From positions 1-41,412 of the forward strand of contig JAUNOM010000022.1 in NCBI GenBank assembly GCA_030531085.1: a DNA stretch of 41,412 nucleotides, in the 5' to 3' direction. Positions 654-18,355 of this stretch are shown here, in pieces. The position numbers were made by a program, and so were the translations under genes. A model generated the notes under the pieces. That model was not told where the DNA came from, ran no database searches, and saw nothing but the letters and a program-made list of their open reading frames with translations. This DNA comes from Prevotellaceae bacterium (lineage in GTDB: Bacteria > Bacteroidota > Bacteroidia > Bacteroidales > Bacteroidaceae). The first letter of the stretch is position 1, and every line of letters begins with the position of its first letter.

Positions 654-708
654 CAGTTAGGTAAGTTTTAATAGTAGTTCGGTTTATCTGTAATGGTTTT
701 TACGGTTG

Positions 709-935: not shown

Positions 936-1022
936 CCGACAACTAACTTATATCTAAATTCAATAACCATACTATTGGCTCACAGACACCATAACGTACA
1001 GACTATATCACACGCCATTATC

Positions 1023-3749: not shown

Positions 3750-3978
3750 GGTGGCTTGGTTGGTTGTGGGTTGTTGGTTGTGGGTTTTAGGTCTTTGGTT
3801 ATGGGTTTTAGGTCAGTACGCTATAACTTTACAGTCTATTCAGAGACCAAGAACTTAAAAATCAACCCCCAAAAACAAAAAAAGACCAAATAACCCACAA
3901 CCTAAAACCAACAAAAGGCCCCCAACCAACAACCCCAAAAGACCTCCAACCCAAAACCAACAACCAACAACCATAACA
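3750..3978. repeat. G/T-rich and C/A-rich arms, possible large stem or G-quadruplex
   Basis: No gene. The left part (3750-3816) is built from GGTTGG, GTGGGTT and GGTTTTAGGTC words. The right part (about 3880-3975) holds complementary words such as AACCCACAACC, AACCAACAACC and AAGACC. The transcript could fold into a long imperfect stem between the regulator and the GH2 gene. The cluster GGTTGGTTGTGGGTTGTTGG also has four G-runs that could form a two-tetrad quadruplex. A conventional terminator and a TAnnTTTG promoter were not found here. Confidence 0.5.
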
Positions 3979-6900
3979 ATGAAAAAGCTATTCCCAACAA
4001 TTCTCTCACTGGCCCTGGCGTGCACCGTCCAGGCCGGAGAACGCTACAACTTCAACGCCGCATGGAAACTGGCGGTGGGCAATGAGCCACGGGGCTCGGA
4101 AGTGAAGTTCAACGATTCTGACTGGCAGAACGTCACACTGCCATACGCCTTCAACCAGCATGAGGCCTTCGGAAAGCTCTGCGCGGAGCTGAGCGACACC
4201 GTGATGTGGTACCGGAAGCGCTTCACCCTGCCCAAGAGCGCGAAGGGTAAGCGCGTGTATGTGGAGTTCGAGGGAGCGCGCTTCGGAGCACAGGTATTCA
4301 TAAACGGCCACGAGCTGGGATGGGGAGAGAACGGAGTGATGGCCTTCGGCTTTGACCTTACACCTTATATAAAATATAAAGGGGAGAATGTTCTGGCGGT
4401 ATTCGTGGACAACAACTGGAAATATCACGAGCATCTGATGTTCCCCGACCCGAAGACAGGACGCATGACAGGGTCTGGATTCCAGTGGAACGACAAGAAC
4501 TTCTACTGCAACTACGGCGGCATAAACAAGAATGTGTGGCTGCATATCATGCCGCAGGTGCACCAGACGCTGCCGCTTTACTCCAACCTCGGGACCACGG
4601 GAGTGTACGTTTACGCCAAGGACATAGACGTGAGGCGTGGCGCTGCCACGGTATGTGCCGAGACACAGGTGGTGAACGGGGGCAAGTCACGCCAGACAGT
4701 GCAGCACAAGGTCACCGTCATTGACAAGGACGGCCGCGAGGTGGCCTCCTTCCTTGGCGACAGCCGCACCGTCAGCCCCGGCGACACGGTGACATTGAAG
4801 TCGCAGAAGGCCCTCGAGGGGCTGCATCTGTGGTCCTGGGGCTACGGATACCTGTACACGGTGAAGTCCAGCCTGGTGCAGAATGGCAGGGTAACGGACG
4901 AGCAGAGCATACGCACTGGGTTCAGAAAGACGGAGTTTAAGGACGGCATGGTATACCTCAACGACCGCGTGCTGCAGCTGAAAGGCTTCGCGCAGCGCTC
5001 CACCAACGAGTGGCCCGCACTTGGCATCTCCATTCCTGCGTGGATGAGTGACTACTCCAACAGCCTGATACTGGGCTGTAACGGAAACTTTGTGCGCTGG
5101 ATGCACGTCACACCATCCAGACAGGACGTGCTGTCCTTTGACAGACTGGGACTGATACAGGCCATGCCGGCAGGCGACGCGGAACGCGATGTGACCGGAC
5201 GCAGATGGGAACAGAGGTGCGAGGTGATGCGTGACGCCATCATCTACAACCGCAACAACCCGTCAATACTGTTCTATGAGGGCGGCAACAACAACATCTC
5301 CGACCCGCACATGGCCGACCTGAAGGCCATACGCGACCAGTATGACCCGCACGGCGGACGCGCTGCCGGCTCACGTAATATGCTAAGCTCAAAGGAGGCG
5401 GAGTACGGCGGCGAGATGCTATACGTGAACAAGTCGGCAGGCAAGCCCATGTGGCAGATGGAATACAACCGTGACGAGGGCATACGCCGCTACTGGGACC
5501 GCTGGAGCTACCCGTATCACGAGGAGGGAGAGGGCCCGCTGTACCGCGGAGCACGCGCCGTGGCATACAACCACAATCAGGACGGACTGGCAATAGAGAA
5601 TATAATAAGGTGGAACGAGTACTGGATGGCGCGGCCGGGCACTGGCAGAAGGGTGAACTCCGGTGGTGCCAAGATCATATTCTCTGACTCAAACACCCAT
5701 GCGCGCGGCGAGAAGAACTACCGCACCAGTGGTGATGTGGACCCGATGCGCCTGCCAAAGGACTCGTGGTTCGTGCACCGCACCATGTGGGACGGATGGG
5801 TTGACACGGAACATCACAGCGCCCATATCATAGGTCACTGGAACTATCCCGACACAGTGGTGAAGCCCGTCTATGTATGCTCCACCGCCGACAGCGTGGA
5901 GCTGTTCCTTAACGGCAGGAACCTTGGGCCGGGACGCCGCTCCGAGACATTCCTGTTCACATGGGACAGCGTGGCCTACAATCCGGGAACTCTGCGTGCC
6001 GTGGCCTACAAGGACGGAAAGGCAGTGGCGGAGGACTCACGCCGCACCGTGGGACAGCCCGTAAGCCTGCGCATGAGGTGGGTGGACGCTCCGGAACAGT
6101 TCCGCGCTGACAATGCCGACATACGCATAGCCGAGATAGAGGCTGTGGACGCGCAGGGACAGCGGCATCCGCTGGCACACGACATGATAGAGTTCTCCGT
6201 AAGCGGTGAGGGCGAGTACATCGGAGGAGTGAGCGGAGTGGTGCCCGAAGAGGAGAAGGCTCTCAACGCGGCGGCGACACCACAGGGCCAGGAAGGCATC
6301 ATATCCGAGGGCGGACACTCCAAGGACAGCAACATGACAGGCTCCAGACAGCTTATGCTGGAGGCAGGAGTGATACGCGTGATGGTACGCTCAACACTGC
6401 AACCCGGCGACATCACGCTGACGGCCACACCGACATCATGCGACGGAGCGCCGTCCACGCTGAAGCCGGCACAGCTGACAGCCACCACGACAGCGTGCCC
6501 TGTGAAGGGCGGCTTCTACGTTAACAGCACGGGACAGCCCGTGGAGGCGGACTGGGCCGCACAGCTGCCGCTGTATCTGGAGCGCGGAGCCACCCCGCAG
6601 ACACCGTCCTTCACACAGAAATACATCACTGTGCCCGTGAAGAGCGTGGAGGCCGCCGTGAACAAGGACAAGCTGCACTACCTGACGGACGACATAGAGG
6701 CCACGGATGCCGGAATGTACGGCGTGGACTCACGATGGAGCAGCGACGGAATCATTGACAACGCATGGCTGAAGGTGACACTGGAGCGCCCGGCGGCAAT
6801 ATCACAGATAGCACTGCGCATGGCGGGATTCCGCACCACGAGCTATCCGCTGCAGGTCTTCGCACACATCAACGGCGAGCGGCGTCTCGTATGGCAGGGC

Positions 6901-7104
6901 TTCACACCCAAGAACCTCGGTGACGCATACATAGACATCGCGGAGCCGGTAATGACGGATCAGTATGAGATACGCATGATTGGCCCGGCAAACGTGAAGG
7001 AGGCCTTCGCCTCTATGACCGAGCTGGCGGCCAGGAAGAACGTATCCACCAAGGCGTCAAAGAGCAACGTGCTGTCAATAATAGAGATGCAGTTCAGTGA
7101 ATAG
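3979..7104 (+). CDS. Secreted glycoside hydrolase family 2 enzyme
   Basis: A 1041-residue exported enzyme of the GH2 type (beta-galactosidase/beta-glucuronidase-like). A signal peptide (MKKLFPTILSLALACTVQA) is followed by the sugar-binding jelly roll (WYRKRFTLP, GARFGAQVFINGHELG, YGGINKNVWL), an immunoglobulin-like domain, the TIM barrel (about residues 320-560), a DUF4982-like region (VELFLNGRNLG, about 635-700), a further Ig-like part and a C-terminal discoidin-like domain (RWSSDGIIDNAWLKVTLE). The likely nucleophile is Glu495 in QMEYNRDEG. The usual acid/base motif GNE reads G-N-N (Asn438), with Glu434 four residues earlier in YEGGNNN. It probably acts in the periplasm or outside; the substrate cannot be named. 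It lies 229 bp behind the sensor gene and ends before a terminator. Confidence 0.9.
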   Translation: MKKLFPTILSLALACTVQAGERYNFNAAWKLAVGNEPRGSEVKFNDSDWQNVTLPYAFNQHEAFGKLCAELSDTVMWYRKRFTLPKSAKGKRVYVEFEGARFGAQVFINGHELGWGENGVMAFGFDLTPYIKYKGENVLAVFVDNNWKYHEHLMFPDPKTGRMTGSGFQWNDKNFYCNYGGINKNVWLHIMPQVHQTLPLYSNLGTTGVYVYAKDIDVRRGAATVCAETQVVNGGKSRQTVQHKVTVIDKDGREVASFLGDSRTVSPGDTVTLKSQKALEGLHLWSWGYGYLYTVKSSLVQNGRVTDEQSIRTGFRKTEFKDGMVYLNDRVLQLKGFAQRSTNEWPALGISIPAWMSDYSNSLILGCNGNFVRWMHVTPSRQDVLSFDRLGLIQAMPAGDAERDVTGRRWEQRCEVMRDAIIYNRNNPSILFYEGGNNNISDPHMADLKAIRDQYDPHGGRAAGSRNMLSSKEAEYGGEMLYVNKSAGKPMWQMEYNRDEGIRRYWDRWSYPYHEEGEGPLYRGARAVAYNHNQDGLAIENIIRWNEYWMARPGTGRRVNSGGAKIIFSDSNTHARGEKNYRTSGDVDPMRLPKDSWFVHRTMWDGWVDTEHHSAHIIGHWNYPDTVVKPVYVCSTADSVELFLNGRNLGPGRRSETFLFTWDSVAYNPGTLRAVAYKDGKAVAEDSRRTVGQPVSLRMRWVDAPEQFRADNADIRIAEIEAVDAQGQRHPLAHDMIEFSVSGEGEYIGGVSGVVPEEEKALNAAATPQGQEGIISEGGHSKDSNMTGSRQLMLEAGVIRVMVRSTLQPGDITLTATPTSCDGAPSTLKPAQLTATTTACPVKGGFYVNSTGQPVEADWAAQLPLYLERGATPQTPSFTQKYITVPVKSVEAAVNKDKLHYLTDDIEATDAGMYGVDSRWSSDGIIDNAWLKVTLERPAAISQIALRMAGFRTTSYPLQVFAHINGERRLVWQGFTPKNLGDAYIDIAEPVMTDQYEIRMIGPANVKEAFASMTELAARKNVSTKASKSNVLSIIEMQFSE

Positions 7105-7150
7105 GGTCCGCAAGGGACGGAACGGACATCAACAGACAATAAATTCCATG

Positions 7151-7196
7151 ACATTGTCGGGAAAGGGAGCATCCCTTTTCCGGCAATGTGTTTTTT
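7151..7196 (+). terminator. Terminator after the GH2 gene
   Basis: ACATTGTCGGGAAAGGGA pairs with TCCCTTTTCCGGCAATGT around a GCA loop (7151-7189), followed by a T run. A strong intrinsic-terminator shape with few mismatches. Confidence 0.85.
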
Positions 7197-7265
7197 ATAC
7201 AGGCACCAGTATGGCTCATGAAAGTGGAGGAACGCAATATATATTCTTCATAAAACAATAATAAT

Positions 7266-8471
7266 ATGACAAGAACAAGTGTAAAACTGAAATTCCGTCC
7301 CTCTGCGACTCCTGACCGTATGGGAACTCTTTACTTCCAGGTTATCCATGAGCGCACAGTGCGCCAGTTTGCAACAGACTACAGGATATACGCCTCCGAA
7401 TGGGACAGGCGCAGGTCCACGGTTACTATATCCGGCGACAGTGGGCGCAGGCAGACGCTTGCCATGCTGCGTGAGCGTACATTCCATGACATGGAGAGGC
7501 TGAGGCGTGTGGTCCTTTCGTTCGAGCGGAGGGGGCTGGACTTCTGTGCGGACGACATAATCGCAGAATACCGCCGCATCATGCAGGAGCATACGCTGTT
7601 CCACTTCATGGAACATACCATCGCACAGCTGCGGCAACTCGGGAAGAGACGCACAAGCGAGACCTACCAGGCGGCACTGAACAGCTTCAGACAATACAGG
7701 GGCGGCGAGGACATAATGATTGACACCATGACATCGGACGAGATAAGGAACTATGAAGCCTCCATGAACAGGCGCGGGATATCACTGAACACATCATCAT
7801 TCTATATGCGGATACTGCGCGCGACATACAACCGCGCCGTGGAGAACGGAGTGACAGAACAGCACTATCCATTCAAACACGTCTATACCGGAGTGTGCAA
7901 GACCGTGAAACGGGCCATCACCATCGGTGACATCAGAAGGATAAGGCGGCTGTCCCTGCCCCCCGGCACATCACTGGCATTGGCACGTGACATATTCATG
8001 TTCAGCTTTTTCACACGCGGGATGGCTTTCGTGGACATAGCATTCCTCCGCAAGAGGGATGTCGAGGGCGGAATGATAACGTACAAGAGGCATAAGACGG
8101 GGCAGCTGCTCCGTGTCAGGATAGAGAAATGCACCCAGGAAATCATTGACAGAAACCATAATCCTGACACGGACTATCTGTTTCCACTCATAAGGAAGTC
8201 CGGAGACGAGTACCAGCAGTACCGCAACGCACTCAGACTTGTAAACCGCAGACTGAAACAAGTAGGCTGTATGGCAGGCATTCCCATAAGGCTGACAACA
8301 TACGTGGGCCGCCACTCATGGGGCAGTGCGGCGAAAAGCAGCAACATACCGATATCTGTAATAAGCGAGTCCATGGGACACGACAATATAAAAACCACGC
8401 AGATATACCTTATTTCCCTTGACACGTCGGTAATAGATGATGCCAACGCAAAAATACTTAAAGAACTGTAA
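7266..8471 (+). CDS. Tyrosine site-specific recombinase 1 (promoter-invertase type)
   Basis: A 401-residue tyrosine recombinase of the short Bacteroidota type: an arm-like N-terminal domain (SVKLKFRPSA...RIYASEWD), a core-binding SAM-like domain (about residues 115-205) and a C-terminal catalytic domain. Catalytic positions are Arg251 (FFTRGMAF), a lysine in YKRHKTGQ, Arg349-His350 in YVGRHSW, His372 in MGHDN and nucleophile Tyr381 in TTQIYL. The first histidine of the HxxR box is Tyr346, whereas the paralogue at 12671 has His. The gene ends 33 bp before an inverted repeat bounding a promoter-bearing segment, so its likely job is local DNA inversion for phase variation rather than phage integration; no phage or conjugation genes are near. 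Confidence 0.9.
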   Translation: MTRTSVKLKFRPSATPDRMGTLYFQVIHERTVRQFATDYRIYASEWDRRRSTVTISGDSGRRQTLAMLRERTFHDMERLRRVVLSFERRGLDFCADDIIAEYRRIMQEHTLFHFMEHTIAQLRQLGKRRTSETYQAALNSFRQYRGGEDIMIDTMTSDEIRNYEASMNRRGISLNTSSFYMRILRATYNRAVENGVTEQHYPFKHVYTGVCKTVKRAITIGDIRRIRRLSLPPGTSLALARDIFMFSFFTRGMAFVDIAFLRKRDVEGGMITYKRHKTGQLLRVRIEKCTQEIIDRNHNPDTDYLFPLIRKSGDEYQQYRNALRLVNRRLKQVGCMAGIPIRLTTYVGRHSWGSAAKSSNIPISVISESMGHDNIKTTQIYLISLDTSVIDDANAKILKEL

Positions 8472-8504
8472 GGGACGGTAGGCACCCATATACAATATAG
8501 TCTA

Positions 8505-8523
8505 TCTCTTTGCAAGAGAGCGA
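8505..8523 (+). repeat. Left inverted repeat of switch 1
   Basis: TCTCTTTGCAAGAGAGCGA, 19 bp, repeated exactly in reverse at 8663-8681. Within it, TCTCTT and AAGAGA form a perfect dyad around a TGC core, as expected for a tyrosine-recombinase crossover site with two opposed binding sites. Confidence 0.9.
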
Positions 8524-8644
8524 CAGGTGGGTTAACGCACTGTGTCTAAGGCTCTGAATAATGCTTTTTGCTAAATTTATTGACAATTTCAGTGTGAAAA
8601 GTGATTTTTTTTCTAAAAAATTCTTTTAATTTAAAATTAATTAC

Positions 8645-8652
8645 TACTTTTG
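8645..8652 (+). promoter_or_regulatory. -7 box of the switch 1 promoter
   Basis: TACTTTTG matches TAnnTTTG and reads toward the 8802 operon. It lies inside the invertible segment, so its direction depends on the state of the switch. Confidence 0.7.
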
Positions 8653-8662
8653 CAAATGTAAA

Positions 8663-8681
8663 TCGCTCTCTTGCAAAGAGA
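8663..8681 (-). repeat. Right inverted repeat of switch 1
   Basis: Exact reverse complement of 8505-8523. It would be transcribed within the leader of the surface operon, which runs about 140 nt to the ATG at 8802. Confidence 0.9.
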
Positions 8682-8801
8682 GGGTCAAAACGTCCGTGCA
8701 GCCATCATAATGCCCCGTGTGTTGATGCGCCTCCGTTGCCGAACGAGACAAATTATAACTTTCACAGTCACAGGAGGTGTGGCTACAGACATTTTAAAAC
8801 T

Positions 8802-9569
8802 ATGAAGAAATTCTTTCTCATGATGGCTCTGTCACTGGGTTTGGTAACAGTAGCAGACGCACAAATCTCAACAGGTGAGACAACCTCAAAGGTCATCCGT
8901 ACCGGTAACCGTGCCCAGGAAGGCAACTTCGGCATCTATCTTGGCGCAACAAGCGAGATCTTCAAGAACATCGGAGCCTCCGGCACGAAGTTCAGCGCCA
9001 TCCCACTCATCAACCTCAAGTACATGAAGACAGACCAGCTGGAGTACCGTCTGGGCTTTGAGTGGTACGACAAGTACACCAGCGAGAACCAATTCAGCGG
9101 AGATGACGACGAGATCAAGGCCAGCCAGACATCCAGCGAGTCCAAGTTCATGTTCTATCCAGGCGTGGCCTTCCACTTCTCACCGAAGAACCTGCTCGAC
9201 GTATACGTAGGCGCTGAGCTGCCAATCGGCTTCGGCACCGTAGGTAACCACACATTCATAGACGGACTGGAGGGTGAGGCCGCCGAGGGAGTCGAGACAC
9301 GTACCGGGCATACAGCCAAGGTATTCCGCATGGGCGCGGGCGCATTCATCGGACTTCAGGCCTACATCGCCAACCTGCCTTTAGCACTTGGAGTGGAATA
9401 CGGCGTAAGCACACTGTACAACCACTACTATCAGGGCACCTTTGAGAAGGACGGCTACTTCCTTAGCGCAATAGACGCGAACAGCATCGACACACAGCGC
9501 TCTGCAACAAAATGGAAGCTCGGCAACCAGGTGCGCGTGACACTTTCCTACTACTTCTCTCTCAAATAA
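8802..9569 (+). CDS. Outer-membrane beta-barrel-like protein, phase-variable
   Basis: A 255-residue exported protein. The frame stays open upstream to 8601, but that stretch crosses the promoter and inverted repeat; the ATG at 8802 begins a good signal peptide (MKKFFLMMALSLGLVTVADA, then Q). The mature part alternates polar and hydrophobic residues in aromatic-rich strands (FGIYLGATSEIF, LEYRLGFEWYDKY, KFMFYPGVAFHF, LDVYVGAELPIGFG, LALGVEYGVSTLYNHY) and ends VRVTLSYYFSLK; a terminal aromatic strand is typical of barrels assembled in the outer membrane. It is the first gene of a three-gene operon behind invertible promoter 1, so surface exposure with ON/OFF expression is likely. No specific family is recognised. 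Confidence 0.75.
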   Translation: MKKFFLMMALSLGLVTVADAQISTGETTSKVIRTGNRAQEGNFGIYLGATSEIFKNIGASGTKFSAIPLINLKYMKTDQLEYRLGFEWYDKYTSENQFSGDDDEIKASQTSSESKFMFYPGVAFHFSPKNLLDVYVGAELPIGFGTVGNHTFIDGLEGEAAEGVETRTGHTAKVFRMGAGAFIGLQAYIANLPLALGVEYGVSTLYNHYYQGTFEKDGYFLSAIDANSIDTQRSATKWKLGNQVRVTLSYYFSLK

Positions 9570-9589
9570 ACCATCTAAACCGTTGAAAC

Positions 9590-10075
9590 ATGAAAATCGT
9601 TAAAATAATGACACTCGCGGCACTCGTGCTATGTGTGGTCTCATGCGGAACAATGCAGAGGACGAACACATACAAGGTGCGCGCAAACACCATGGAACTG
9701 AGCATGAACGACTTTGTATTCCTTGGAGAAAGTGAGATATCATGTGAATATGACACATACCTGGGCTTCATACGCCACCTTAACACCGTTAACGGCAAGA
9801 TGTTCAACCCGGGCGAGAGGCTGTCACTGAACGTAAGCACCAACAACCACGCCATATTCCAGAACAAGGGAATGAAGTACGCGGCGTCCAAGCTGATGGA
9901 AAAGTATCCTGACGCACACTACTTCCAGGTCGTAATGGACAAGAAGACCACCGATGTGCTCTTCCTCGGCTCTACAACCAAGAGGGTGGCAAAGGTAAGA
10001 GTGTACAAGTTCAAGGACCGCAGCGCGTATAACATCAATGTAGACAAGGGCAGCTATATAAAGATTGGACAATAG
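9590..10075 (+). CDS. Lipoprotein of unknown function, second gene of switch 1 operon
   Basis: A 161-residue protein starting 20 bp after the barrel gene. A short lipoprotein signal ends in the lipobox VVSC (Cys19), followed by GTMQ with no acidic run, so the inner face of the outer membrane is as plausible as the surface. The rest is mixed alpha/beta with no family I recognise: MNDFVFLGESEISCEYDTYLGFIRHL in the middle and a basic C-terminal end (KVRVYKFKDRSAYNINVDKGSYIKIGQ). Two cysteines remain after lipidation of Cys19 is discounted poorly separated from the N-terminus, so no disulfide claim is made. It shares promoter and terminator with its neighbours and probably works with the barrel protein. 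Confidence 0.7.
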   Translation: MKIVKIMTLAALVLCVVSCGTMQRTNTYKVRANTMELSMNDFVFLGESEISCEYDTYLGFIRHLNTVNGKMFNPGERLSLNVSTNNHAIFQNKGMKYAASKLMEKYPDAHYFQVVMDKKTTDVLFLGSTTKRVAKVRVYKFKDRSAYNINVDKGSYIKIGQ

Positions 10076-10103
10076 CTGTATACAGACACTTTCAGAACAG
10101 AAT

Positions 10104-10964
10104 ATGAAGAAGATAGTATGCCTCCTGTGTCTGTGCATGACACTGACAGCATTATACTCGTGCAGTGAAGAGGAACCCCAGGAGCTTTCAGACATAGCGC
10201 TCATCATCACCCCATCCCTCGCCGACTCCATCGTGCTGCAGTCAGGCGACAGGAAACTCTTCAACATGAAGTATTATGTCAATACCGGCGGAAAGGTGGA
10301 ACGCCTGCAGGTCAAATCCGTAGACGTGGAGAACGGGGAGCTGACCCTTGCGGACACCACATACGCGGAAACGGTGCAGGAGGCTACCTTCATATACGTG
10401 GCACCGCAGACAACAAGGGAGAGACTGTCCGTAAAGCTGACGTTCACCCTAACCGAGACATCGGGCAGGAAGACAACGCAGACAAGGACAGTCACGGTGA
10501 ACAGCAGGCTGCTGATGCTACAGGAAGTGGGCCCCGTAGTGCTGTACATGGCCGGGGACAAGGCTGACGCCATCATGTTCAATGAGCCAACGCAGGTGTT
10601 CGACCACGTACTGGAGGCAGAGAGCAGACTGCCCGACCTGTATCTCGACGTCGACACCCTGGAGGACGGCACCCATCCGCTCGCCTTCATGAGCGGAACA
10701 GAGACACGCTTTGTCAGGGCTAACAGCTTTGACTACGCCTCAGCCAGCGCCAATGCCATACAGACCGTGTACGCCAACTCCGTAAGGATGGCGAGAATAG
10801 ACGCGCTGCAGACCAATGACATAATCATTGCCGGCCACGGCGCACAGGCGGAGGGCATAATGTTCATACAGAATATAGTAAGAATCGGCACAGACAACGA
10901 TCTGTGCCTGCAGATGCGATACAAGCCTTTGCATAAGATTACAGAGGAGAACATTGCAAAATAA
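10104..10964 (+). CDS. Surface lipoprotein of unknown function, third gene of switch 1 operon
   Basis: A 286-residue lipoprotein. The frame is open from 10065, but the ATG at 10104 gives a proper signal (MKKIVCLLCLCMTLTALYS) with the acylated cysteine at residue 20. That cysteine is followed by SEEE, an acidic run like the surface-export signal described for Bacteroidota lipoproteins. The mature protein begins with beta-rich, immunoglobulin-like sequence (MKYYVNTGGKVERLQVKSVDVENGELTL, VKLTFTLTETSGRKTTQTRTVTVNSRLL) and continues with a segment that matches nothing I know. It follows the second lipoprotein gene after 28 bp and ends 44 bp before a terminator, so it closes the operon. Confidence 0.75.
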   Translation: MKKIVCLLCLCMTLTALYSCSEEEPQELSDIALIITPSLADSIVLQSGDRKLFNMKYYVNTGGKVERLQVKSVDVENGELTLADTTYAETVQEATFIYVAPQTTRERLSVKLTFTLTETSGRKTTQTRTVTVNSRLLMLQEVGPVVLYMAGDKADAIMFNEPTQVFDHVLEAESRLPDLYLDVDTLEDGTHPLAFMSGTETRFVRANSFDYASASANAIQTVYANSVRMARIDALQTNDIIIAGHGAQAEGIMFIQNIVRIGTDNDLCLQMRYKPLHKITEENIAK

Positions 10965-11007
10965 TATAATAATATGACATTCCGGTTGCGGAGGCAATGG
11001 AAAAATG

Positions 11008-11040
11008 ACAGGTGGGCTGTGAAAGTTCGCCTGTTTTTCT
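11008..11040 (+). terminator. Terminator of the switch 1 operon
   Basis: ACAGGTG (11008-11014) pairs with CGCCTGT (11028-11034), with one G-T pair, around a 13-nt loop and is followed by TTTTTCTT. It closes the 8802-10964 operon. Confidence 0.7.
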
Positions 11041-11181
11041 TATTGTGAACATCCACTGAACCCGCCGGACCGGCAGCGGTAATGTTTAAGTCGGTTAAAA
11101 AAACTTTAGAGATATAACAGGATGGGGACATTCTACCAAAAATATTGTATATTTGCGGACAAATTGACATAATAATCATTC

Positions 11182-12219
11182 ATGACTGTTATTTTATTAT
11201 ACTTTACAGGCGCCCTGTCCGTCTCCTTTCTATGCTCTATACTGGAAGCCGTACTGCTCTCCACCCCCATGTCCTTCATATCGATGAAAGAGGCGCAGGG
11301 CAGTGGCACCGCCTCACTGCTGAAGAAGTACAAGAGCAATGTGGACAGGCCTGTCGGAGCCATCCTGTCACTTAACACCATAGCCCATACGATAGGCTCC
11401 GCCGGCGTGGGCGCGGAAGCGATGAAACTGTTCGGTGAGGAATACTTCGCGCTGATCTCCGCTATACTGACACTGCTCATACTTGTCCTGTCCGAGATAG
11501 TGCCCAAGACCATCGGAGCGTCATACTGGCGCACGCTGGCCCTGCCATGCACAAGAATCATCTACGGCATGATAATCATAACATATCCCCTGGTGTTGCT
11601 CTCTGAACTGATAACACGCATCTTCTCACCGAAGAACCCTCCATGCTCCGTGAGCCGCGAGGAGGTGTCGGCAATGGTGGACATGGGTACAGACGAGGGG
11701 GTGTTCCGCAAGGAGGAAAGCAAGATAATCAAGAGCTGTATGCACCTTGTGGACGTGAAGGCCAAGGAGATAATGACTCCATACATAGTGATAGAGTGCG
11801 CAAGCGAGCAGACCACCCTGAAGGACTTCTGCGCCACGGGCAACCCATCCTTCTCACGCATACCCGTGTTCAAGGACGAGAAGGAGCACATTACGGGATA
11901 TGTGCTGAAGGACACCATACTGAAGGAACTGTCCGAGGACAAGTTTGACACACCGCTGTCTGACCTGATGCGTCCCATACTCTCCTTCTCCGAGAACGAA
12001 TCCGTATTCAACATCTGGGAAAGAATGCTGCAGGAGAAGGAGCATATATCGGTAATCATTGACGAATACAGCTGCCTTCGCGGCATAGTGACGATGGAGG
12101 ACGTGCTGGAGACCATGATAGGCGTGGAGATAGTGGATGAGCAGGACACCACAACCGATATGCAGATGCTGGCGAGGGAGAAGTCCAGACAGTGGAGTAC
12201 GGTATACCGCAGGAAATAA
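11182..12219 (+). CDS. CNNM/CBS-domain membrane protein (HlyC/CorC family)
   Basis: A 345-residue inner-membrane protein. The N-terminal DUF21/CNNM-type domain has three or four hydrophobic segments (ILLYFTGALSVSFLCSILEAVLL; the conserved-type LSLNTIAHTIGSAGVGA; ALISAILTLLILVLSEIVPKTIGA; IIYGMIIITYPLVLLSELI). A linker (EEVSAMVDMGTDEGVFRKEESKII) leads to a pair of CBS domains (about residues 195-315: VKAKEIMTPYIVIECA and ISVIIDEYSCLRGIVTMEDVLETMIG). Relatives are linked to magnesium or cobalt efflux. The C-terminal transporter-associated HlyC domain found in many relatives is missing. It stands alone between the two phase-variation modules; a possible -7 box TATATTTG lies at 11148-11155 without a clear -33. 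Confidence 0.88.
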   Translation: MTVILLYFTGALSVSFLCSILEAVLLSTPMSFISMKEAQGSGTASLLKKYKSNVDRPVGAILSLNTIAHTIGSAGVGAEAMKLFGEEYFALISAILTLLILVLSEIVPKTIGASYWRTLALPCTRIIYGMIIITYPLVLLSELITRIFSPKNPPCSVSREEVSAMVDMGTDEGVFRKEESKIIKSCMHLVDVKAKEIMTPYIVIECASEQTTLKDFCATGNPSFSRIPVFKDEKEHITGYVLKDTILKELSEDKFDTPLSDLMRPILSFSENESVFNIWERMLQEKEHISVIIDEYSCLRGIVTMEDVLETMIGVEIVDEQDTTTDMQMLAREKSRQWSTVYRRK

Positions 12220-12285
12220 AGAAAGCGGCACCTGCTGAACAGAAGGCCGAAAACATCTTCGTCATTTGTAAAACTCCGAAGGCAA

Positions 12286-12387
12286 GAGCTATCAAATCAC
12301 CTTGCAATTTGATAGCTTTTGCAGTGTAATCTCTATGCTTTTACTGGGTAATCTGATAGCTATTACAAGGTAATTTGATAGCTTTTG
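12286..12387 (+). repeat. 22-bp tandem repeat array A
   Basis: Three full units and one partial unit of 22 bp: 12306-12327, 12328-12349, 12350-12371 and 12372-12387. Units follow AATYTGATAGCTTTTRCANNGT or the variant AATCTCTATGCTTTTACNGGGT. Just before it, GAGCTATCAAATCACCTTGC (from 12286) is an inverted copy, so the array starts with a hairpin. The same repeat occurs at 35037-35118. No spacers and no gene. Confidence 0.85.
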
Positions 12388-12464
12388 TTTGGTGGTCCTG
12401 TCCGAACTAGACAGTGAGAGAAATCGGGCTGAATATGCCCTTTACAACCCACAGACTTCTACAG

Positions 12465-12498
12465 GCCGTTAAGCTCCGATAGCTTAACGGCTTCTTTA
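12465..12498 (+). terminator. Intrinsic terminator-like hairpin
   Basis: GCCGTTAAGCT (12465-12475) and AGCTTAACGGC (12481-12491) form a perfect 11-bp stem with a CCGAT loop, followed by TTCTTTAT. It lies 245 bp after the CBS-domain gene and upstream of the recombinase 2 promoter, and may insulate the two. Confidence 0.7.
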
Positions 12499-12527
12499 TG
12501 CCCTTTTATTTTACAGTTTTCCACATT

Positions 12528-12581
12528 TTCGCAGGTGTTATTTTTTTGTTTTACCTTTGCCACCACAGATTTTAAATCTGT
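12528..12581 (+). promoter_or_regulatory. Promoter and dyad upstream of recombinase 2
   Basis: TTCG (12528-12531), a 20-bp spacer and TACCTTTG (12552-12559) form a near-consensus Bacteroidota promoter. Right at the expected transcript start is a near-perfect palindrome, ACAGATTTTAAATCTGT (12565-12581), which could be an operator or a 5' hairpin. The leader to the ATG at 12671 is about 105 nt. Confidence 0.6.
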
Positions 12582-12670
12582 ATGGTACAGGTGTCACGTC
12601 ATGAACTACAACAACGGGCAAGGGGGTGGAGAGAGAAAACATCAATCCAAACAACAAAAATAAAAAGAGA

Positions 12671-13879
12671 ATGGCATCAGTCAAGGTGAAATTTCGTCCT
12701 TCCACCGCAGGCAGCAGGGAGGGCAGCATATACTATCAGGTAATCCATGGGCGCATAGTCCGCCAAATCAAGACGGGCTACCGCATCTATGACACAGAAT
12801 GGGACAAGAGGACCTCATCCGTGAGAAAGCAGAATGGAACCGGTGAGGACAGAAAACGCTATCTTTTTGAGGTGGCTGAACATATCGACTGGGACACCAG
12901 ACGGTTGAGAGCCATTGCCGCCCAGTGTGAAAGGCAAGGCGGAATATATTCCGCTGACAGCATAGTTGAGAAGTTCAATGGGCAGACGGACGAACAGTCG
13001 CTGTCCTGCTTTACGCAGAACATCATCGGACAGCTGAAGCTGCTTGGCAGAGTCCGCACCTCGGAAACCTACACGGCGGCTTTGTCCAGTTTCATGAAGT
13101 TTCGCGATGGGCATGACATCCTGCTGTGCGAGATGGACGGCAACACCATGATGCTTTATGAGGCATGGCTCAAGGGCAAGGGCATCTGCTCCAACACCAT
13201 ATCCTTTTATATGCGCACACTCCGTGCTGTTTACAACCGTGCCGTGGAAAAGGGCCTGACGGAACAGATGAACCCTTTCAAGCACGTCTATACGGGCATC
13301 GGGAAGACTGTGAAACGCGCTCTCCCGTTGAAGGCCGTCAGGCACATCAAGGAACTTGACCTGACCCAGAAACCGCATCTGGATTATGCAAGGGATATGT
13401 TCCTCTTCTCCTTTTATACCCGTGGTATGTCATTCATTGATATGGCCTATTTGAAGAAATCAGATTTGAAGAACGGGGTCATCACGTACAGAAGAAGGAA
13501 GACGGGACAGCTACTCACCATAAAGTGGGAGAGGTGCATGGAGGAAATCATCGCCAAATACGGTGAGAACGCCACCTGTTACCTCCTGCCGATCATTACC
13601 AATCCGTCTTTAGACGAACGGACGCAATACCGTAACGCCATCTGCCGCATCAATGTGGCATTGAAGGAGGTCGCAAATATGGCTGGGCTGCATATACCGC
13701 TGACCATGCACGTTGCCCGCCATTGCTGGGCAAGCGTTGCCAAGAGCAAGAACATCCCCCTTTCGGTCATCAGCGAGGGCATGGGGCATGATTCAGAAGA
13801 GACCACACGCATCTATCTTGCATCGCTCGACACAAGCATTGTGGACAAGGCAAACAGCCTTATCCTAAGGGATTTGTAA
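12671..13879 (+). CDS. Tyrosine site-specific recombinase 2 (promoter-invertase type)
   Basis: A 402-residue paralogue of the recombinase at 7266, alignable along its whole length (MASVKVKFRPS against MTRTSVKLKFRPS at the start). That alignment and a purine-rich stretch just upstream favour the ATG at 12671 over the in-frame GTG at 12626. Catalytic positions are Arg251 (YTRGMSFID), a lysine in YRRRKTGQ, His347/Arg350/His351 in HVARHCW, a histidine in MGHDSEE and nucleophile Tyr382 (TTRIYL), so the HxxR box is complete here. The gene ends 39 bp before the left inverted repeat of switch 2, the same spacing logic as in module 1, and most likely inverts that segment. Confidence 0.9.
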   Translation: MASVKVKFRPSTAGSREGSIYYQVIHGRIVRQIKTGYRIYDTEWDKRTSSVRKQNGTGEDRKRYLFEVAEHIDWDTRRLRAIAAQCERQGGIYSADSIVEKFNGQTDEQSLSCFTQNIIGQLKLLGRVRTSETYTAALSSFMKFRDGHDILLCEMDGNTMMLYEAWLKGKGICSNTISFYMRTLRAVYNRAVEKGLTEQMNPFKHVYTGIGKTVKRALPLKAVRHIKELDLTQKPHLDYARDMFLFSFYTRGMSFIDMAYLKKSDLKNGVITYRRRKTGQLLTIKWERCMEEIIAKYGENATCYLLPIITNPSLDERTQYRNAICRINVALKEVANMAGLHIPLTMHVARHCWASVAKSKNIPLSVISEGMGHDSEETTRIYLASLDTSIVDKANSLILRDL

Positions 13880-13918
13880 CCAGATATCTATGGGAAAAAG
13901 TGTTGAAATGACAGATAT

Positions 13919-13934
13919 ATCTCTTGGTGAGAGA
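13919..13934 (+). repeat. Left inverted repeat of switch 2
   Basis: ATCTCTTGGTGAGAGA, 16 bp, with an exact reverse copy at 14095-14110. It has the same TCTCTT/RAGAGA half-sites as switch 1 but a GGT core. Confidence 0.9.
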
Positions 13935-13948
13935 TATAGTTTATAGTG

Positions 13949-13956
13949 CAAAGATA
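13949..13956 (-). promoter_or_regulatory. -7 box of the switch 2 promoter
   Basis: TATCTTTG on the minus strand. In the present orientation it would send transcripts antisense into the end of the recombinase 2 gene. No consensus TTTG lies at the expected distance. Confidence 0.6.
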
Positions 13957-14094
13957 CAAATATTATTTCAAATACTATGTTTTATCCTCGTTTATAATGG
14001 TGCATGAAGGACTTTTTGTAAGAATATGTTTTGCAAATCTGACATATTAGTTCTTTTAAACGCTGATTATTGGTACTTCTTCTTTTGGAATAGC

Positions 14095-14110
14095 TCTCTC
14101 ACCAAGAGAT
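14095..14110 (-). repeat. Right inverted repeat of switch 2
   Basis: Exact reverse complement of 13919-13934, 36 bp before the first start codon of the operon. Confidence 0.9.
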
Positions 14111-14146
14111 CTATTAGAATTGGCAATAATCAAAAAGAATTAGACT

Positions 14147-15439
14147 ATGGCACAGAATGTTTATATGGTGTCTTTGGCATGTTTCATTCCTTTGAAAAGA
14201 ATTAGGAGAAAATACCAAAAACTATGCGCATCTAAAATGTGTATAAAAACACCATTTGCTCATTTCCCCAATGCCAAATGTTACTATGAAACTTTTGAGA
14301 ATGCAAAACAATCGCCCGTTGTATGTGATCATGTTTTTTATTACAAATCACGTTACAACAGTAAAGACATTGTGTGGAGACAAGTTACGGTCAAACCTTT
14401 CTTGTTAGAGTTTAGATTAGGTAAAGGTGCCCTATTAAGGACATTAGCCTTGCTTATTTCTGTCGATAAAGTATTTGACAAAGAGAAACAGATGTACAAT
14501 GGTGAGGATTTTTGTACAGAATTTGATTTGGTCAATCTTAAAAAAGCATTCTTTGAAACATTTCCTAACGGTTTGCTGTCTTCTAAAGATGTAAACGCAA
14601 AAAGTCATCATGATTGGATTAAAGATTTGCTACATGAGATAGAAGGTATAAAACGCACTCAAATTATCATCCCATACTCCATTATTGATGTGAATGTCCA
14701 AAGGATTGAATTGAAGGACAATTCTATTGATTTAGAAAATCTGAGTGAACTGTTCAAGCAAGGATATTATTGCAATTCATCTAATACTTCAATAGACGAC
14801 TTTTTGTCTAAACCAATTGAGGTACAAGGCTTGACCAAGCAGCCTACCACTCCTGACGGAAAAACTGTTGATGAACGATGTTTCGCTTATGGCCTGCTAT
14901 ATGCAAATGACAATTTCATGATGCTACACAAAGGGGCGATGGAAACGGTAATAAATAATTTCTATACCAACAATCAGGTTGAGAAATTCTGGGCTGACGA
15001 TGGAAATATTGTGCATATTATCACACACACGCCTTTCTTTCAGTCTTCCTCCCAAAAAACAAAATCATTGATGGGAGATTTAGGTGAAGTTTCATGCCTA
15101 CTTGAAATGTGTATGCTCATATATCTAAAATGTAAGTTGACGCAACTAAAAATCAAGTACAATACAATTTCATCCGAAGAAATAGAACTTTCGTTAGAAG
15201 AAATTGTCGATGGTGTGTATGGTAGACTGTTTAACCAAACCGATTATGATAAGCGGATGATTTACTATAAAAGAATGTTTCGCCTATTTGAAACATTGGA
15301 AATGGTACGAGGGATAACGATACCTCGTAAAAACATTTTAAGCATGGTTTTCAATAGAAGGAATGCTTTTATAGCCTCTGTCATAGCTATCTTAACATTA
15401 ATTGTTACATGTGTCTCACTCTTAATAAGCAAAACATAA
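14147..15439 (+). CDS. Tail-anchored membrane protein of unknown function, switch 2 operon
   Basis: A 430-residue protein matching no family I can name. It has no signal peptide. Its one clear hydrophobic helix is at the C-terminus (NAFIASVIAILTLIVTCVSLLIS, about residues 405-427), preceded by a basic stretch (RKNILSMVFNRR), so most of it should face the cytoplasm and be tail-anchored in the inner membrane. The body is helical and lysine-rich with several cysteines (SLACFIP, QKLCASKMC, CFAYGLL, SCLLEMCMLIYLKCKL). Base composition is clearly more AT-rich than the flanking modules, a sign of separate origin. Its stop overlaps the next start (TAATG), so it is translationally coupled to a 47-residue membrane protein. 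It is the first gene behind invertible promoter 2. Confidence 0.75.
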   Translation: MAQNVYMVSLACFIPLKRIRRKYQKLCASKMCIKTPFAHFPNAKCYYETFENAKQSPVVCDHVFYYKSRYNSKDIVWRQVTVKPFLLEFRLGKGALLRTLALLISVDKVFDKEKQMYNGEDFCTEFDLVNLKKAFFETFPNGLLSSKDVNAKSHHDWIKDLLHEIEGIKRTQIIIPYSIIDVNVQRIELKDNSIDLENLSELFKQGYYCNSSNTSIDDFLSKPIEVQGLTKQPTTPDGKTVDERCFAYGLLYANDNFMMLHKGAMETVINNFYTNNQVEKFWADDGNIVHIITHTPFFQSSSQKTKSLMGDLGEVSCLLEMCMLIYLKCKLTQLKIKYNTISSEEIELSLEEIVDGVYGRLFNQTDYDKRMIYYKRMFRLFETLEMVRGITIPRKNILSMVFNRRNAFIASVIAILTLIVTCVSLLISKT

Positions 15440-15582
15440 TGGATATAAGGTGTTTTTGTATTATCGCAACAATATTAGGCATATTGGCTTTTATTGTAAT
15501 GGTTGTAATGATGGTATATATTATCATTATGAAAGAAAGAATAGATGATATTTGTCGTAAATTGGATGATGACAGCTTATGA
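15439..15582 (+). CDS. 47-residue single-pass membrane protein
   Basis: A small gene easily missed: ATG at 15439 overlapping the TAA of the preceding gene by one base, and TGA at 15580-15582 overlapping the next gene's ATG at 15579. It encodes MDIRCFCIIATILGILAFIV and then MVVMMVYIIIMKERIDDICR, ending KLDDDSL: one long transmembrane helix with a short charged tail. Overlaps with both neighbours argue strongly that it is translated. It could be a partner or anchor for the tail-anchored protein or the GH13 enzyme; no family is recognised. Confidence 0.75.
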   Translation: MDIRCFCIIATILGILAFIVMVVMMVYIIIMKERIDDICRKLDDDSL

Positions 15583-16631
15583 CTCAAGAACGAATATACC
15601 ATATTATGATAGATCGTTTTTTCCCCTCGAAAGACGAGGATATAAACGGAAATTTCAAGGGTGGATGTGTGCGAGATATCATCAATCATCTTGATTATAT
15701 CCAAGGGCTTGGCATGATTGGCATTATGCTTACACCTTTTTATAGGACACATACATATCATGGCTATCACATTGTGGATTTTGAGCAAATTGACCCTCAT
15801 TTTGGTACAAAAGAAGATGTGAAAGAACTTATTACTAAAGTACATGATAGGAACATGATTATTGTGGTTGATTTCGTAGCAAATCACTGCCACAAGAATT
15901 GTCGGTTATTTTCTGATGGAAAGCATAACGACTGGTTTCTTTTCCAGTCTGATGGAACATATAAGTGCTTTGCAGACATTGTTGATTTGCCAATGTTCAA
16001 TACAGACAATAATGAAGTGCAGGCTTATTTGACAGATCGAGTATTAGAATTGTGTGCTATGGGAGTTGACGCCATACGATTTGATCATGCCACAGGACCA
16101 AGTTATACATTTTGGGCATTCCTCAGGAAATCAGTGAAAAGACAGTACCCAAATGTTAGACTAATAGGAGAAGTGTGGGGGAGGCTTGATTTCAAGCCAC
16201 GCAACATCTTCCGCTACTTCTTTAACCGTATACGATATGATACGCAAGAAGCGAGGCAGCTTGAGTATGTGGGCATACTTGATGGAGTATTAGATTTTCG
16301 CTATCAGCAACTTCTTTGCAAAGCTGCCAATAGCGGAAAGTCCATAGCAAATAACTATGCCCTTAACAATGAAGTAAAGACGCATTTTGCTCGTTATCCC
16401 ACAGATTTCCAATTATGGTTGTTCCTTGATAATCACGATTTAAACAGGTTTCTTTTTGAATGCAATGGAGACAAAACGTTGTTTTGGGAAGGCATCGAGT
16501 TTTCTAAGCAATGGAACAAGCCCTGGCTGATGTTCTACGGAACAGAAAAAGAGTTTACAAATAATAAATCAATTTTCAACGGCACACCTTATGCAGATGA
16601 AATGGTGAGGATGTGTATAAAAAGCAAATAA
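15579..16631 (+). CDS. GH13 (alpha-amylase family) enzyme without signal peptide
   Basis: A 350-residue protein with the four GH13 signatures: region I DFVANHC, region II GVDAIRFDHA with nucleophile Asp169, region III IGEVW with acid/base Glu198, and region IV FLDNHD with His286-Asp287. The catalytic set is intact. It opens directly with the barrel (RIYHIMIDRFFPS...GCVRDIINHLDYIQGLGMIGIMLTPFY), lacks an export signal and seems to stop soon after the barrel, without the usual C-terminal beta domain. It should act in the cytoplasm on an alpha-glucan, trehalose-like or other alpha-glucoside; the substrate is not readable. The start ATGA overlap with the 47-residue gene and the 4-bp gap to the next gene place it in the switch 2 operon. 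Confidence 0.88.
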   Translation: MTQERIYHIMIDRFFPSKDEDINGNFKGGCVRDIINHLDYIQGLGMIGIMLTPFYRTHTYHGYHIVDFEQIDPHFGTKEDVKELITKVHDRNMIIVVDFVANHCHKNCRLFSDGKHNDWFLFQSDGTYKCFADIVDLPMFNTDNNEVQAYLTDRVLELCAMGVDAIRFDHATGPSYTFWAFLRKSVKRQYPNVRLIGEVWGRLDFKPRNIFRYFFNRIRYDTQEARQLEYVGILDGVLDFRYQQLLCKAANSGKSIANNYALNNEVKTHFARYPTDFQLWLFLDNHDLNRFLFECNGDKTLFWEGIEFSKQWNKPWLMFYGTEKEFTNNKSIFNGTPYADEMVRMCIKSK

Positions 16632-16635
16632 AATC

Positions 16636-17142
16636 ATGAAATATATACTATTTATAATAATGATGCTTACTTCATTATGTTCTACAGCACAAGTTTACTC
16701 ATCCGAAGCTTGTTTTTATATTGGGGCTGGTACAGATATATCAGACGACCAAGAGTCTTGTTTTGTATATAATTTTAATGGAAATAATCTTTATCACTAT
16801 GTTAACTCTTTATATAATATGAAGGATAAACTTAGAAATAATCCCAACTATTTTGAAAATGGCAAAAATATGTTCAAGGGTCCATACATATATGACAAAT
16901 CACGTACAACAAATTCATACTATGTCTACACTCTGCATCATCCAGAAAAAACAGTTAATATGTTTACACATTTTGTGCATTATCCAGAGAGCTTTGAATG
17001 TGTTGCAGTAAGCAAAGATAAATCCTCCATTATAACATGGACAGAAGAAAAAGGTGATATACACTCTAAACTTAGTTTTGTGCGAATAGACAAAAAACAA
17101 TTACAGCCCAAGGCAATAAACAGAGATTTTCTTTATGAATAA
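16636..17142 (+). CDS. Secreted protein of unknown function, switch 2 operon
   Basis: A 168-residue protein beginning 4 bp after the GH13 gene. A signal peptide (MKYILFIIMMLTSLCSTA, then QVYSS) without a convincing lipobox at the cleavage point predicts a periplasmic or secreted product. The mature part is rich in Tyr, Phe and Asn (CFVYNFNGNNLYHYVNSLYNMKDKLRNNPNYFENGKNMFKG, SYYVYTLHHPEKTVNMFTHFVHYPESFECVAVSKDKSS), suggesting a small beta-rich domain. No known family is recognised. It overlaps the next gene by 8 bases and shares the AT-rich composition of the operon. Confidence 0.7.
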   Translation: MKYILFIIMMLTSLCSTAQVYSSEACFYIGAGTDISDDQESCFVYNFNGNNLYHYVNSLYNMKDKLRNNPNYFENGKNMFKGPYIYDKSRTTNSYYVYTLHHPEKTVNMFTHFVHYPESFECVAVSKDKSSIITWTEEKGDIHSKLSFVRIDKKQLQPKAINRDFLYE

Positions 17143-17857
17143 GATGATGCTCTCGTTTGCCGTTTTATTCGTTATCTCGGCATTAGGAATAAAGGCACAA
17201 CGATGTAGTTACTACGCTCTTACGAAAAAGGTGTGCAACAATACTCAGACCACCAATGTGTCTGGAGGTCAATTTATATCTTTTATTGATGATATTTGCT
17301 ACGAGTCAGACAACAAACGTATCGGGGTAGGCCATGGCACACTTAAACTGAATAAGAACTACAGCAACAGTAGTTTTAAGGTATATATGGGTGATAGCTA
17401 TTGGGGTAGCAATACTACGTTTAAGTTTAAATCCGATTTGAGCGTGTTGAATGTAATTCTTGAAAATGGTGATGTGTATGTTTACAAAAGAAAGTCTGCT
17501 CCCTCTTCAATAACAACCTGTTCACTCATCCGTAAGAGAACGAAGGAAAACTCTGGTGGTGGTTACACACCTGTTTACCAACCTACTCCTGTGTATAGTG
17601 GTTCATCCAATACTCCAACAACAAGTAGTACACCGAGGCAGAACACAACGTCAGCCAAACGTCAACCGAACAAGCATACTTGTTCCTTATGCCGTGGACA
17701 GAAACGAATAGTGAAAGATACTTATCCTTCATTGTATGGGACAAAAGATTATCAAGTGAAATGTAATGAATGCGGTGGATATTTTATGCGTTCTACAGGA
17801 CATACGCACGTAACGTGTCCGCAATGTCATGGAAAAGGTTACTTTACGACAGACTAA
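17135..17857 (+). CDS. Secreted protein with DnaJ-like zinc-finger tail, switch 2 operon
   Basis: A 240-residue protein overlapping the preceding gene by 8 bases. A signal peptide (MNKMMLSFAVLFVISALGIKA, then Q) leads to a beta-rich domain (about residues 24-130) and a Ser/Thr/Pro-rich linker (about 140-178). The last 60 residues hold four Cys pairs or singles in DnaJ-like spacing: CSLCRGQ, CNECGG and CPQCHGKG. Such CxxCxGxG motifs bind zinc in DnaJ and related proteins and are unusual behind an export signal. An N-terminal glycan- or protein-binding part joined to a zinc-stabilised tail is a fair guess; the function is unknown. It is the last gene before a terminator. Confidence 0.72.
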   Translation: MNKMMLSFAVLFVISALGIKAQRCSYYALTKKVCNNTQTTNVSGGQFISFIDDICYESDNKRIGVGHGTLKLNKNYSNSSFKVYMGDSYWGSNTTFKFKSDLSVLNVILENGDVYVYKRKSAPSSITTCSLIRKRTKENSGGGYTPVYQPTPVYSGSSNTPTTSSTPRQNTTSAKRQPNKHTCSLCRGQKRIVKDTYPSLYGTKDYQVKCNECGGYFMRSTGHTHVTCPQCHGKGYFTTD

Positions 17858-17941
17858 CTATTAGTTGAACTCTTTTCTACAACTTCAATTTAATAGGACA
17901 AGAAAAGTATCAGATATTCGCTGTGAAGATGTTAGTTATCG

Positions 17942-17984
17942 CAACCTGATGGAGATTTTTACTTTGTCAGGTTGTATTTTTTTT
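17942..17984 (+). terminator. Terminator of the switch 2 operon
   Basis: CAACCTGA (17942-17949) pairs with TCAGGTTG (17967-17974), followed by TATTTTTTTT. It ends the five-gene operon and insulates it from the rpsU promoter. A short open frame across it (17865-18050) is not credible. Confidence 0.8.
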
Positions 17985-18050
17985 CTACCACATCTACTAA
18001 ACCACATACACTACACTAAACAATTAAAAACTAATATTTTCCGTGAATAA

Positions 18051-18082
18051 TTTGGTGGTGTCAGAAAAAAGTTGTAATTTTG
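18051..18082 (+). promoter_or_regulatory. Promoter of rpsU
   Basis: TTTG (18051-18054, extended TTTGGTGG), a 20-bp spacer and TAATTTTG (18075-18082). A full match; the leader to the ATG is about 70 nt and contains a small ACGG/CCGT hairpin followed by TTTT. Confidence 0.85.
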
Positions 18083-18160
18083 CAACCGCTAATTACGGTG
18101 TTATGCCGTTTTAGCATCTAAATACTTTATTATTAATCAAAAAAACAAAAAGACAAAGCA

Positions 18161-18355
18161 ATGATTATTGTACCTGTTAAGGAAGGCGAGAACATCGAGA
18201 AAGCCCTCAAGAAATTTAAGAGAAAGTTTGAGAAGACTGGTGTCGTTAAGGAACTCCGTGCACGTCAGCAGTTCGACAAGCCTTCTGTACTCAAGAGGCT
18301 CAAGATGGAGCGCGCCATCTACGTGCAGAAGCTGCGCCAGAATGAGGAGTGTTAA
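18161..18355 (+). CDS. rpsU: 30S ribosomal protein S21
   Basis: A 64-residue basic protein, the usual Bacteroidota length. It starts MIIVPVKEGENIEKALKKFKRKFEKTG, the hallmark N-terminus of S21, and continues VVKELRARQQFDKPSVLKRLKMERAIYV. S21 sits on the platform of the small subunit near the anti-Shine-Dalgarno end of 16S rRNA and in Bacteroidota contributes to its occlusion, which fits the scarcity of Shine-Dalgarno sites in this window. It has its own promoter (18051-18082) and is followed after 50 bp by the xer gene with a separate promoter. Confidence 0.96.
   Translation: MIIVPVKEGENIEKALKKFKRKFEKTGVVKELRARQQFDKPSVLKRLKMERAIYVQKLRQNEEC

Follow-up and report, generated by a model that had tools for sequence, protein, structure and literature searches.

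A putative invertible promoter ahead of an operon pairing a membrane protein, CorA-like by modelling, with a GH13 enzyme in a Prevotellaceae genome

The nearest described precedent for the locus reported here is the CRISPR type III-B system of Bacteroides fragilis, in which a CorA effector is accompanied by NrN or by a SAM-AMP lyase (PMC10600005, PMC11229360). As far as the portion of the account cited here goes, CRISPR CorA alone is somewhat toxic and immunity needs active NrN, that destroys SAM-AMP (PMC10600005). Invertible promoters of Bacteroidales, in the portion of the literature used, combine inverted repeats, an internal promoter box and an adjacent recombinase gene (PMC8748976). The stretch of DNA analysed in this work, further termed the window, has 41,412 nucleotides and covers contig 32 from end to end; the contig is part of the draft genome (2.37 Mb, 61 contigs, 81% complete) of a Prevotellaceae bacterium. 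It contains a segment with the architecture of an invertible promoter, followed by five coupled genes whose products include a membrane protein that is CorA-like by structure modelling and a GH13 enzyme. This combination had been singled out from the letters alone (the sequence-only reading) as matching no known pathway or defence system, and the judgement stands: no published account of a CorA-like or other membrane protein paired with GH13 was found in the open-access literature searched, and no system of PADLOC 2023 fits the operon of the window.

The switch-like segment and its operon

The segment lies between a tyrosine recombinase gene and the operon:

12626..13879, plus strand: tyrosine recombinase, presumed inverter (Pfam Phage_int_SAM_5 8.9e-18, Phage_integrase 1.1e-7, Arm-DNA-bind_5 3.8e-7)
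13919..13934, plus strand: left inverted repeat arm, ATCTCTTGGTGAGAGA (perfect 16-mer; 13915-13934 with one mismatch)
13935..14094, no strand: inter-arm segment of 160 bp, presumed invertible
13949..13956, minus strand: -7 box TATCTTTG, the only exact TAnnTTTG within 13880-14150, facing away from the operon
14095..14110, plus strand: right inverted repeat arm (perfect 16-mer, inverted to the left arm)

The perfect 16-bp repeats reported at the borders of the segment were confirmed. Inverted pairs of perfect 16-mers with a spacing of 60-400 nt form two units in the window and were absent from all 100 dinucleotide shuffles of it, and the arms listed above can be lengthened to 20 nt if one mismatch is allowed. 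Both units have palindrome-like arms (TCTCT-N5-AGAGA), the form that one expects at a crossover site for a tyrosine recombinase. The 14-base arm core, with up to one mismatch allowed, is present in the genome only at these two arm sites; this search says little on chance, since the reversed control pattern of the core occurs three times. The recombinase gene, that was missing from the earlier entry, encodes the R/K/HxxR/H/Y residues (recognised by eye in the translation), and its start is GTG as listed, with an ATG 15 codons further in. The -7 consensus of Bacteroidetes is TAnnTTTG, and its single exact match here is on the minus strand (13956-13949), as was claimed for the only good box. Inversion in silico moves this box to 14073-14080 on the plus strand, 66 nt upstream of the ATG at 14147. 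The segment has the build of an invertible promoter and in this assembly faces away from the linked operon; its inversion is inferred.

The operon behind the segment is composed as follows:

14147..15439, plus strand: P0001, 430 amino acids (aa), CorA-like by AlphaFold (AF2) model: cytoplasmic domain, stalk and first transmembrane helix
15439..15582, plus strand: P0006, 47 aa, read from one-chain relatives as the second transmembrane helix of the P0001 membrane protein
15579..16631, plus strand: P0002, 350 aa, GH13 enzyme (Pfam Alpha-amylase 1.5e-36)
16636..17142, plus strand: P0003, 168 aa, exported-looking (signal-like N-terminus by eye)
17135..17857, plus strand: P0004, 240 aa, exported-looking, with a DnaJ-type CxxC tail (DnaJ_CXXCXGXG 7.3e-5, under the Pfam cut-off)
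17941..17985, plus strand: intrinsic terminator-like hairpin with a T-run (hairpin search)

The five genes are indeed coupled: three of their junctions overlap, by 1, 4 and 8 nt, and the remaining one is a gap of 4 nt. The proposed terminator is present as a hairpin with a T-run, but terminator-like sites are about as frequent as in shuffles (two in the 4.4 kb of 13800-18200 against a mean of 1.7). GH13 is the only clear family match in the operon. P0002 belongs to this family, carries its catalytic triad (D169, E198, D287) and may have alpha-glucanase activity; no signal peptide was seen by eye, which agrees with the earlier placing of the enzyme as cytoplasmic, and it probably is. In the PADLOC 2023 scan P0002 matched the GlgB model only (E 2.6e-21), and P0001 and P0003-P0006 matched no system model. 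The tail of P0004, previously described as zinc-finger-like, is of the DnaJ CxxC type, though the family match stays below the cut-off. A DnaJ chaperone was rejected for this protein, the match being sub-cut-off and covering the CxxCxGxG part only, with no J domain match in Pfam.

Relatives, their control and the genomic setting

Among 399 genomes of the family, P0001 has two relatives at E <= 1e-3 besides its own entry, and only weak matches, up to E 1, in 33 further genomes. No relative was found among 99 other genomes of the genus and order, nor in phages and plasmids, and a scan of genome contigs with P0001 alone gave seven pattern matches, none of them a relative. In the two relatives found, the GH13 gene of the operon is 58% identical to that of the window. 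The scan of genome contigs with a GH13 alignment yielded 38 loci, and altogether a P0001 relative is present at seven distinct loci (the window, L035, L036, L037, L039, L040 and L069). At each of the seven a GH13 gene stands next or next but one to it in the same operon, and the window GH13 is 51-70% identical to its six linked relatives. This linkage is partly built in, because four of the seven loci were retrieved via GH13; L036 and L039 were also retrieved by P0001 alone. Scattered, unlinked genes, which the sequence-only reading had named as a sign against its view, were not seen in relatives.

An exported-looking gene, judged by eye, belongs to all seven operons, at L036 positioned ahead of GH13, and its product ends in a CxxC-rich tail everywhere except at L040. 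Its make-up varies: Sel1 repeats in L036, L037 and L039, BspA leucine-rich repeats (LRR) in L040, WG repeats in L069 (sub-cut-off) and no family call in L035. P0004 has a relative in L039 (E 3.3e-16), and P0003 none in the loci compared. What is conserved is a core of three parts, namely a membrane protein encoded by one or two genes, the GH13 enzyme, and a protein that looks exported and varies in make-up; the module is rare and patchily spread. The synteny expected across Bacteroidales thus stood for GH13 with the P0001 relative, but neither for the 168-aa protein nor for the invertible-type repeats, that are present at two of 11 loci as described below.

P0001 itself fits no Pfam and no PADLOC family, and SLATT identity was rejected, the score being 13.8 bits (E 0.041) where the cut-off is 41. 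By sequence there was no match to CorA, and neither P0001 nor its profile led to a result among PDB sequences. The AF2 model has a pTM of 0.81, and in a VIA comparison its top seven rows were all CorA/ZntB, with weak likeness to the CorA/ZntB stalk. The GMN motif at the end of the first transmembrane helix, a hallmark of CorA, is missing in all seven proteins of the family. Two C-terminal transmembrane helices lie in one chain in L040 and L069 (hydropathy) and in L036 (by eye), and on separate genes at the other four loci. P0001 and P0006 had been taken as a tail-anchored protein and a separate 47-residue membrane protein. Because the three relatives carry both helices in one chain, P0006 is here read as the second helix and a lone tail-anchored protein was rejected; with the model in mind, the pair is most readily understood as the halves of a single CorA-like membrane protein.

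Besides the window, the GH13 tree includes 24 loci out of the 38, the other 14 (duplicates, fragments, distant or similar ones) being omitted, and R-x-D, E and HD are present in all 25 rows. Eleven Bacteroidales rows form one clade (support 100/100), and two further ones, L060 and L062, fall outside it. Within the clade seven rows pair with the CorA-like protein and four (L038, L044, L046, L053) with a different membrane protein, that in L038 and L046 gave sub-cut-off matches to 8xMP (5.9e-5 and 0.0024). In L044:6203-8098 (Bacteroides acidifaciens) and L053:6197-8107 the membrane domain is N-terminal and fused to GH13. The neighbourhoods of these four loci contain FHA and Ser/Thr kinase genes (L053), a caspase-domain gene (L046), a P-loop gene (L044) and sigma-like genes by eye (L038, L046). 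No membrane partner was noticed at the seven out-of-clade loci inspected (L041, L042, L045, L048, L057, L060, L062). Around the CorA-like loci there are Abi_2/AbiD genes upstream at L035 and L069, an abiF RNA at L035 and a C5-methyltransferase upstream at L040, which are suggestive only.

Control appears to differ between the 11 loci of the clade. Inverted repeats of the window type are present at two, the window and L038. At L038:6221-6401 (arms 6221-6239/6383-6401, one mismatch) they stand ahead of the membrane protein and GH13 operon, and the internal -7-like box, TAATTTTG, likewise faces away; this locus has no relative of the window recombinase. Promoter switching is not general, since L036, L040 and L069 have an exact box toward the gene and no comparable repeats. 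At L036, where a recombinase is also located upstream, an invertible promoter was rejected, as no inverted pair of at least 12 nt occurs within 1 kb upstream. Perfect 20-bp inverted repeats, 66 nt apart, were observed at L044:6050-6155 just ahead of the GH13 fusion gene, without an exact internal box.

A conserved leader of about 105 nt ending in a T-run was found at five of the 11 distinct loci, and not in the window:

L039:5350-5458, leader copy
L035:1606-1713, leader copy
L037:1809-1912, leader copy
L044:4540-4643, leader copy, standing before another gene of the cluster
L053:6033-6136, leader copy

The product of L044:4506-5384, encoded at the leader element, is presumably a NusG/UpxY-like protein (by eye). 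The leader alignment A6 holds 26 copies, namely 24 of the 30 fetched together with L035 and L037, and leaves out L085, L098, L100, L103, L104 and L108. Two mutually exclusive folds pair in 98.2% (terminator) and 96.6% (alternative) of cells across the 26 copies, and a slid control in 41-58%. The terminator fold has three pairs with two-sided change, a level reached by one of 500 shuffles. For the alternative fold no pair shows two-sided change and no measure exceeds its shuffles, therefore only its pairing speaks for it. The element is matched in 69 of 201 genomes of the family and has no match in Rfam 15; no account of such an attenuator-like RNA was found in the open-access literature searched. 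Ten proteins encoded behind nine of the 30 copies, chosen by eye, were checked: HSP70 (one), protein kinase (one), BspA LRR (three), no family (two), a dynamin-like GTPase 487 nt downstream (one), and vWA and PP2C, slightly sub-cut-off (one each). The leader is a candidate attenuator-type RNA, and it may serve as a handle for locating more such operons in Bacteroidaceae.

The window contains a neighbouring unit of the same design, each of the two units having its own tyrosine recombinase gene directly ahead of the repeats:

7266..8471, plus strand: second tyrosine recombinase (Phage_int_SAM_5 and Phage_integrase domains)
8505..8681, no strand: neighbouring switch-like unit (perfect 19-bp arms 8505-8523/8663-8681)

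The unit, 7266-12219 as a whole, carries boxes on either strand, TACTTTTG on plus and TACATTTG on minus, and its cargo consists of 322-, 161- and 299-aa proteins without Pfam match, then a CNNM/CBS protein. Elsewhere, at 34830-34880, two perfect inverted repeats of 21 bp are separated by 9 nt. Congeners were searched in 25 genomes including the source genome; the xerD neighbour gene is present in 18 congeners, five of which were compared. Their similarity to the window breaks off immediately ahead of rpsU (18126-18159). Moreover, not one of the 13 window proteins tried (147-17857) has a relative within about 6-12 kb upstream in these five, the sole extra match being the recombinase 7266-8471, which lands on xerD itself. 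For both reasons the region is regarded as accessory. Prophage or plasmid origin was rejected, given no relatives in phage, plasmid and viral sets; a plasmid search with GH13 returned 27 records, every one below 60% identity.

Proposed function and competing explanations

The reading that we favour, and to which we would give somewhat less than an even chance, is that of a membrane-effector module with a protective function, in which a promoter flipped by a recombinase controls expression and GH13 controls the ligand that gates a channel. P0001 and P0006 would form a GMN-less CorA-like membrane protein, composed of a cytoplasmic domain, a helical stalk and the first transmembrane helix, then the second. 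Stress, infection or attack would lead to the production or release of a ligand, which is probably a small molecule of alpha-glucosidic or glucosylated kind, and its binding to the cytoplasmic domain would open or disturb the membrane. GH13 would hydrolyse the ligand and so keep the channel shut or reset it, comparably to NrN with CRISPR CorA and SAM-AMP. The exported protein may act as a stabiliser or sensor at the envelope, and the invertible promoter would limit the cost to a fraction of cells. The operon is possibly a cell-protection device of a new kind.

The plus strand holds one-mismatch boxes at 13885, 13976, 14025, 14080 and 14115, and no TTTG was seen by eye about 19 nt ahead of the -7 box (the usual -33 spacing), even after inversion, which leaves in doubt how strong the promoter is and whether the OFF state is tight. 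The operon promoter had been called OFF in this assembly, which the direction of the exact box makes likely, not proven, while these boxes and the spacing speak against a clean OFF. At L037 a second GH13-type gene, branching-enzyme-like by eye, lies upstream on the opposite strand. The initial interpretation as a whole is partly supported: the switch-like segment and the linked operon hold, the gene composition needed correction, and the switch is not general.

The gene at L037 favours an explanation by phase-variable alpha-glucan metabolism, in which GH13 breaks down stored glycogen or maltodextrin taken up from outside, the CorA-like protein serves as an anchor or carries cations, and glucan or the envelope is bound by the exported proteins. 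It is also consistent with GH13 being firmly within the alpha-amylase family with its triad present, and solitary at the seven outside loci inspected. However, sugar transporter, SusC/D and phosphorylase genes are absent by eye from all seven operons, the CorA-like protein has no GMN motif, and a poorly conserved membrane partner with patchy presence is ill-suited to core metabolism; we consider this explanation unlikely, if the best of the alternatives. An envelope-stress or contact device is a more doubtful candidate. Here the exported Sel1/WG/LRR/CxxC protein would sense, the CorA-like protein would relay inward and GH13 would trim a glucosylated envelope precursor or glycoconjugate. The presence of an exported-looking gene with interchangeable repeat types in all seven operons would suit it, as would the frequent location of gut-bacterial invertons near cell-surface genes, in the portion of the source cited (PMC11892184). 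On the other hand, no signal peptide was seen by eye in GH13, and neither glycosyltransferase nor envelope genes were noticed in the operons. A toxin-antitoxin pair, with the CorA-like protein as toxin and GH13, or its catalysis-independent binding, as antidote, would explain the ATGA overlap between P0006 and GH13, the constant pairing and the defence-type neighbours at L035, L040 and L069, yet it is very improbable, as the intact triad in 25 of 25 rows points to catalysis and promoter switching would flip both genes at once.

The favoured membrane-effector module can be extended to a broader and rather unlikely proposal, namely that a sugar compound serves as second messenger in a new class of immunity or stress signalling: an alpha-glucosidic ligand would gate a GMN-less CorA-like channel, a dedicated GH13 would destroy the ligand, GH13 would be repeatedly combined with different membrane effectors, and either DNA inversion or an attenuator RNA common to several of them would hold the operons back. 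Should the pairing work in this way, carbohydrate hydrolases would join phosphodiesterases, lyases and ring nucleases among the enzymes that set the level of immune or stress signals, and CorA-like effectors would exist beyond CRISPR. At about 4 kb the locus is small, and its partners are defined.

Comparison with known systems

The CRISPR CorA effector has a large cytoplasmic part with a CorA-like membrane part and a degradative enzyme as partner, at times fused, and it is found in Bacteroides; in these respects the operons described here are alike. They differ in that the partner is GH13 in all seven, not a phosphodiesterase or lyase, and in that the second transmembrane helix is sometimes a gene of its own. 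NrN, DEDD and SAM-AMP lyase genes were not noticed in the seven operons, with no model of them run. As for cas10, TIGR02577 (Cmr2) is missing from all three genomes checked (the source genome being 81% complete, and no Csm1 model run), so that, within the limits of this test, the membrane protein is no CRISPR effector.

With the CorA/ZntB channels (PDB 8zah, 5n77, 3nwi) the P0001 model shares stalk helices that run into the first transmembrane helix, and the P0001 family likewise has two such helices, in one or two chains; the family differs from them in lacking GMN (7/7) and any CorA match by sequence. The octameric 8xMP membrane proteins (Pfam PF24838) are weakly matched by the partner at L038 and L046, and the window protein is different. 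A further parallel is given by NTP-dependent conflict systems with SLATT, GTPase, vWA, FHA and kinase components, as the cited portion presents them (PMC7159879). The sister GH13 loci resemble these in that their membrane protein is accompanied by FHA, Ser/Thr kinase, caspase-like or P-loop genes, whereas 'amylase' occurs zero times in the main text of PMC7159879. The window operon itself is without NTPases.

Capsule, fimbria, receptor and resistance genes are the familiar cargo of invertible promoters in Bacteroidales, and the operon of the window lies outside these types. In its inverted repeats, internal box and adjacent recombinase the segment is like the invertible promoters covered by the cited portion of PMC8748976. 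The switch is therefore of a known kind, and its cargo is, as far as seen, an apparently new combination.

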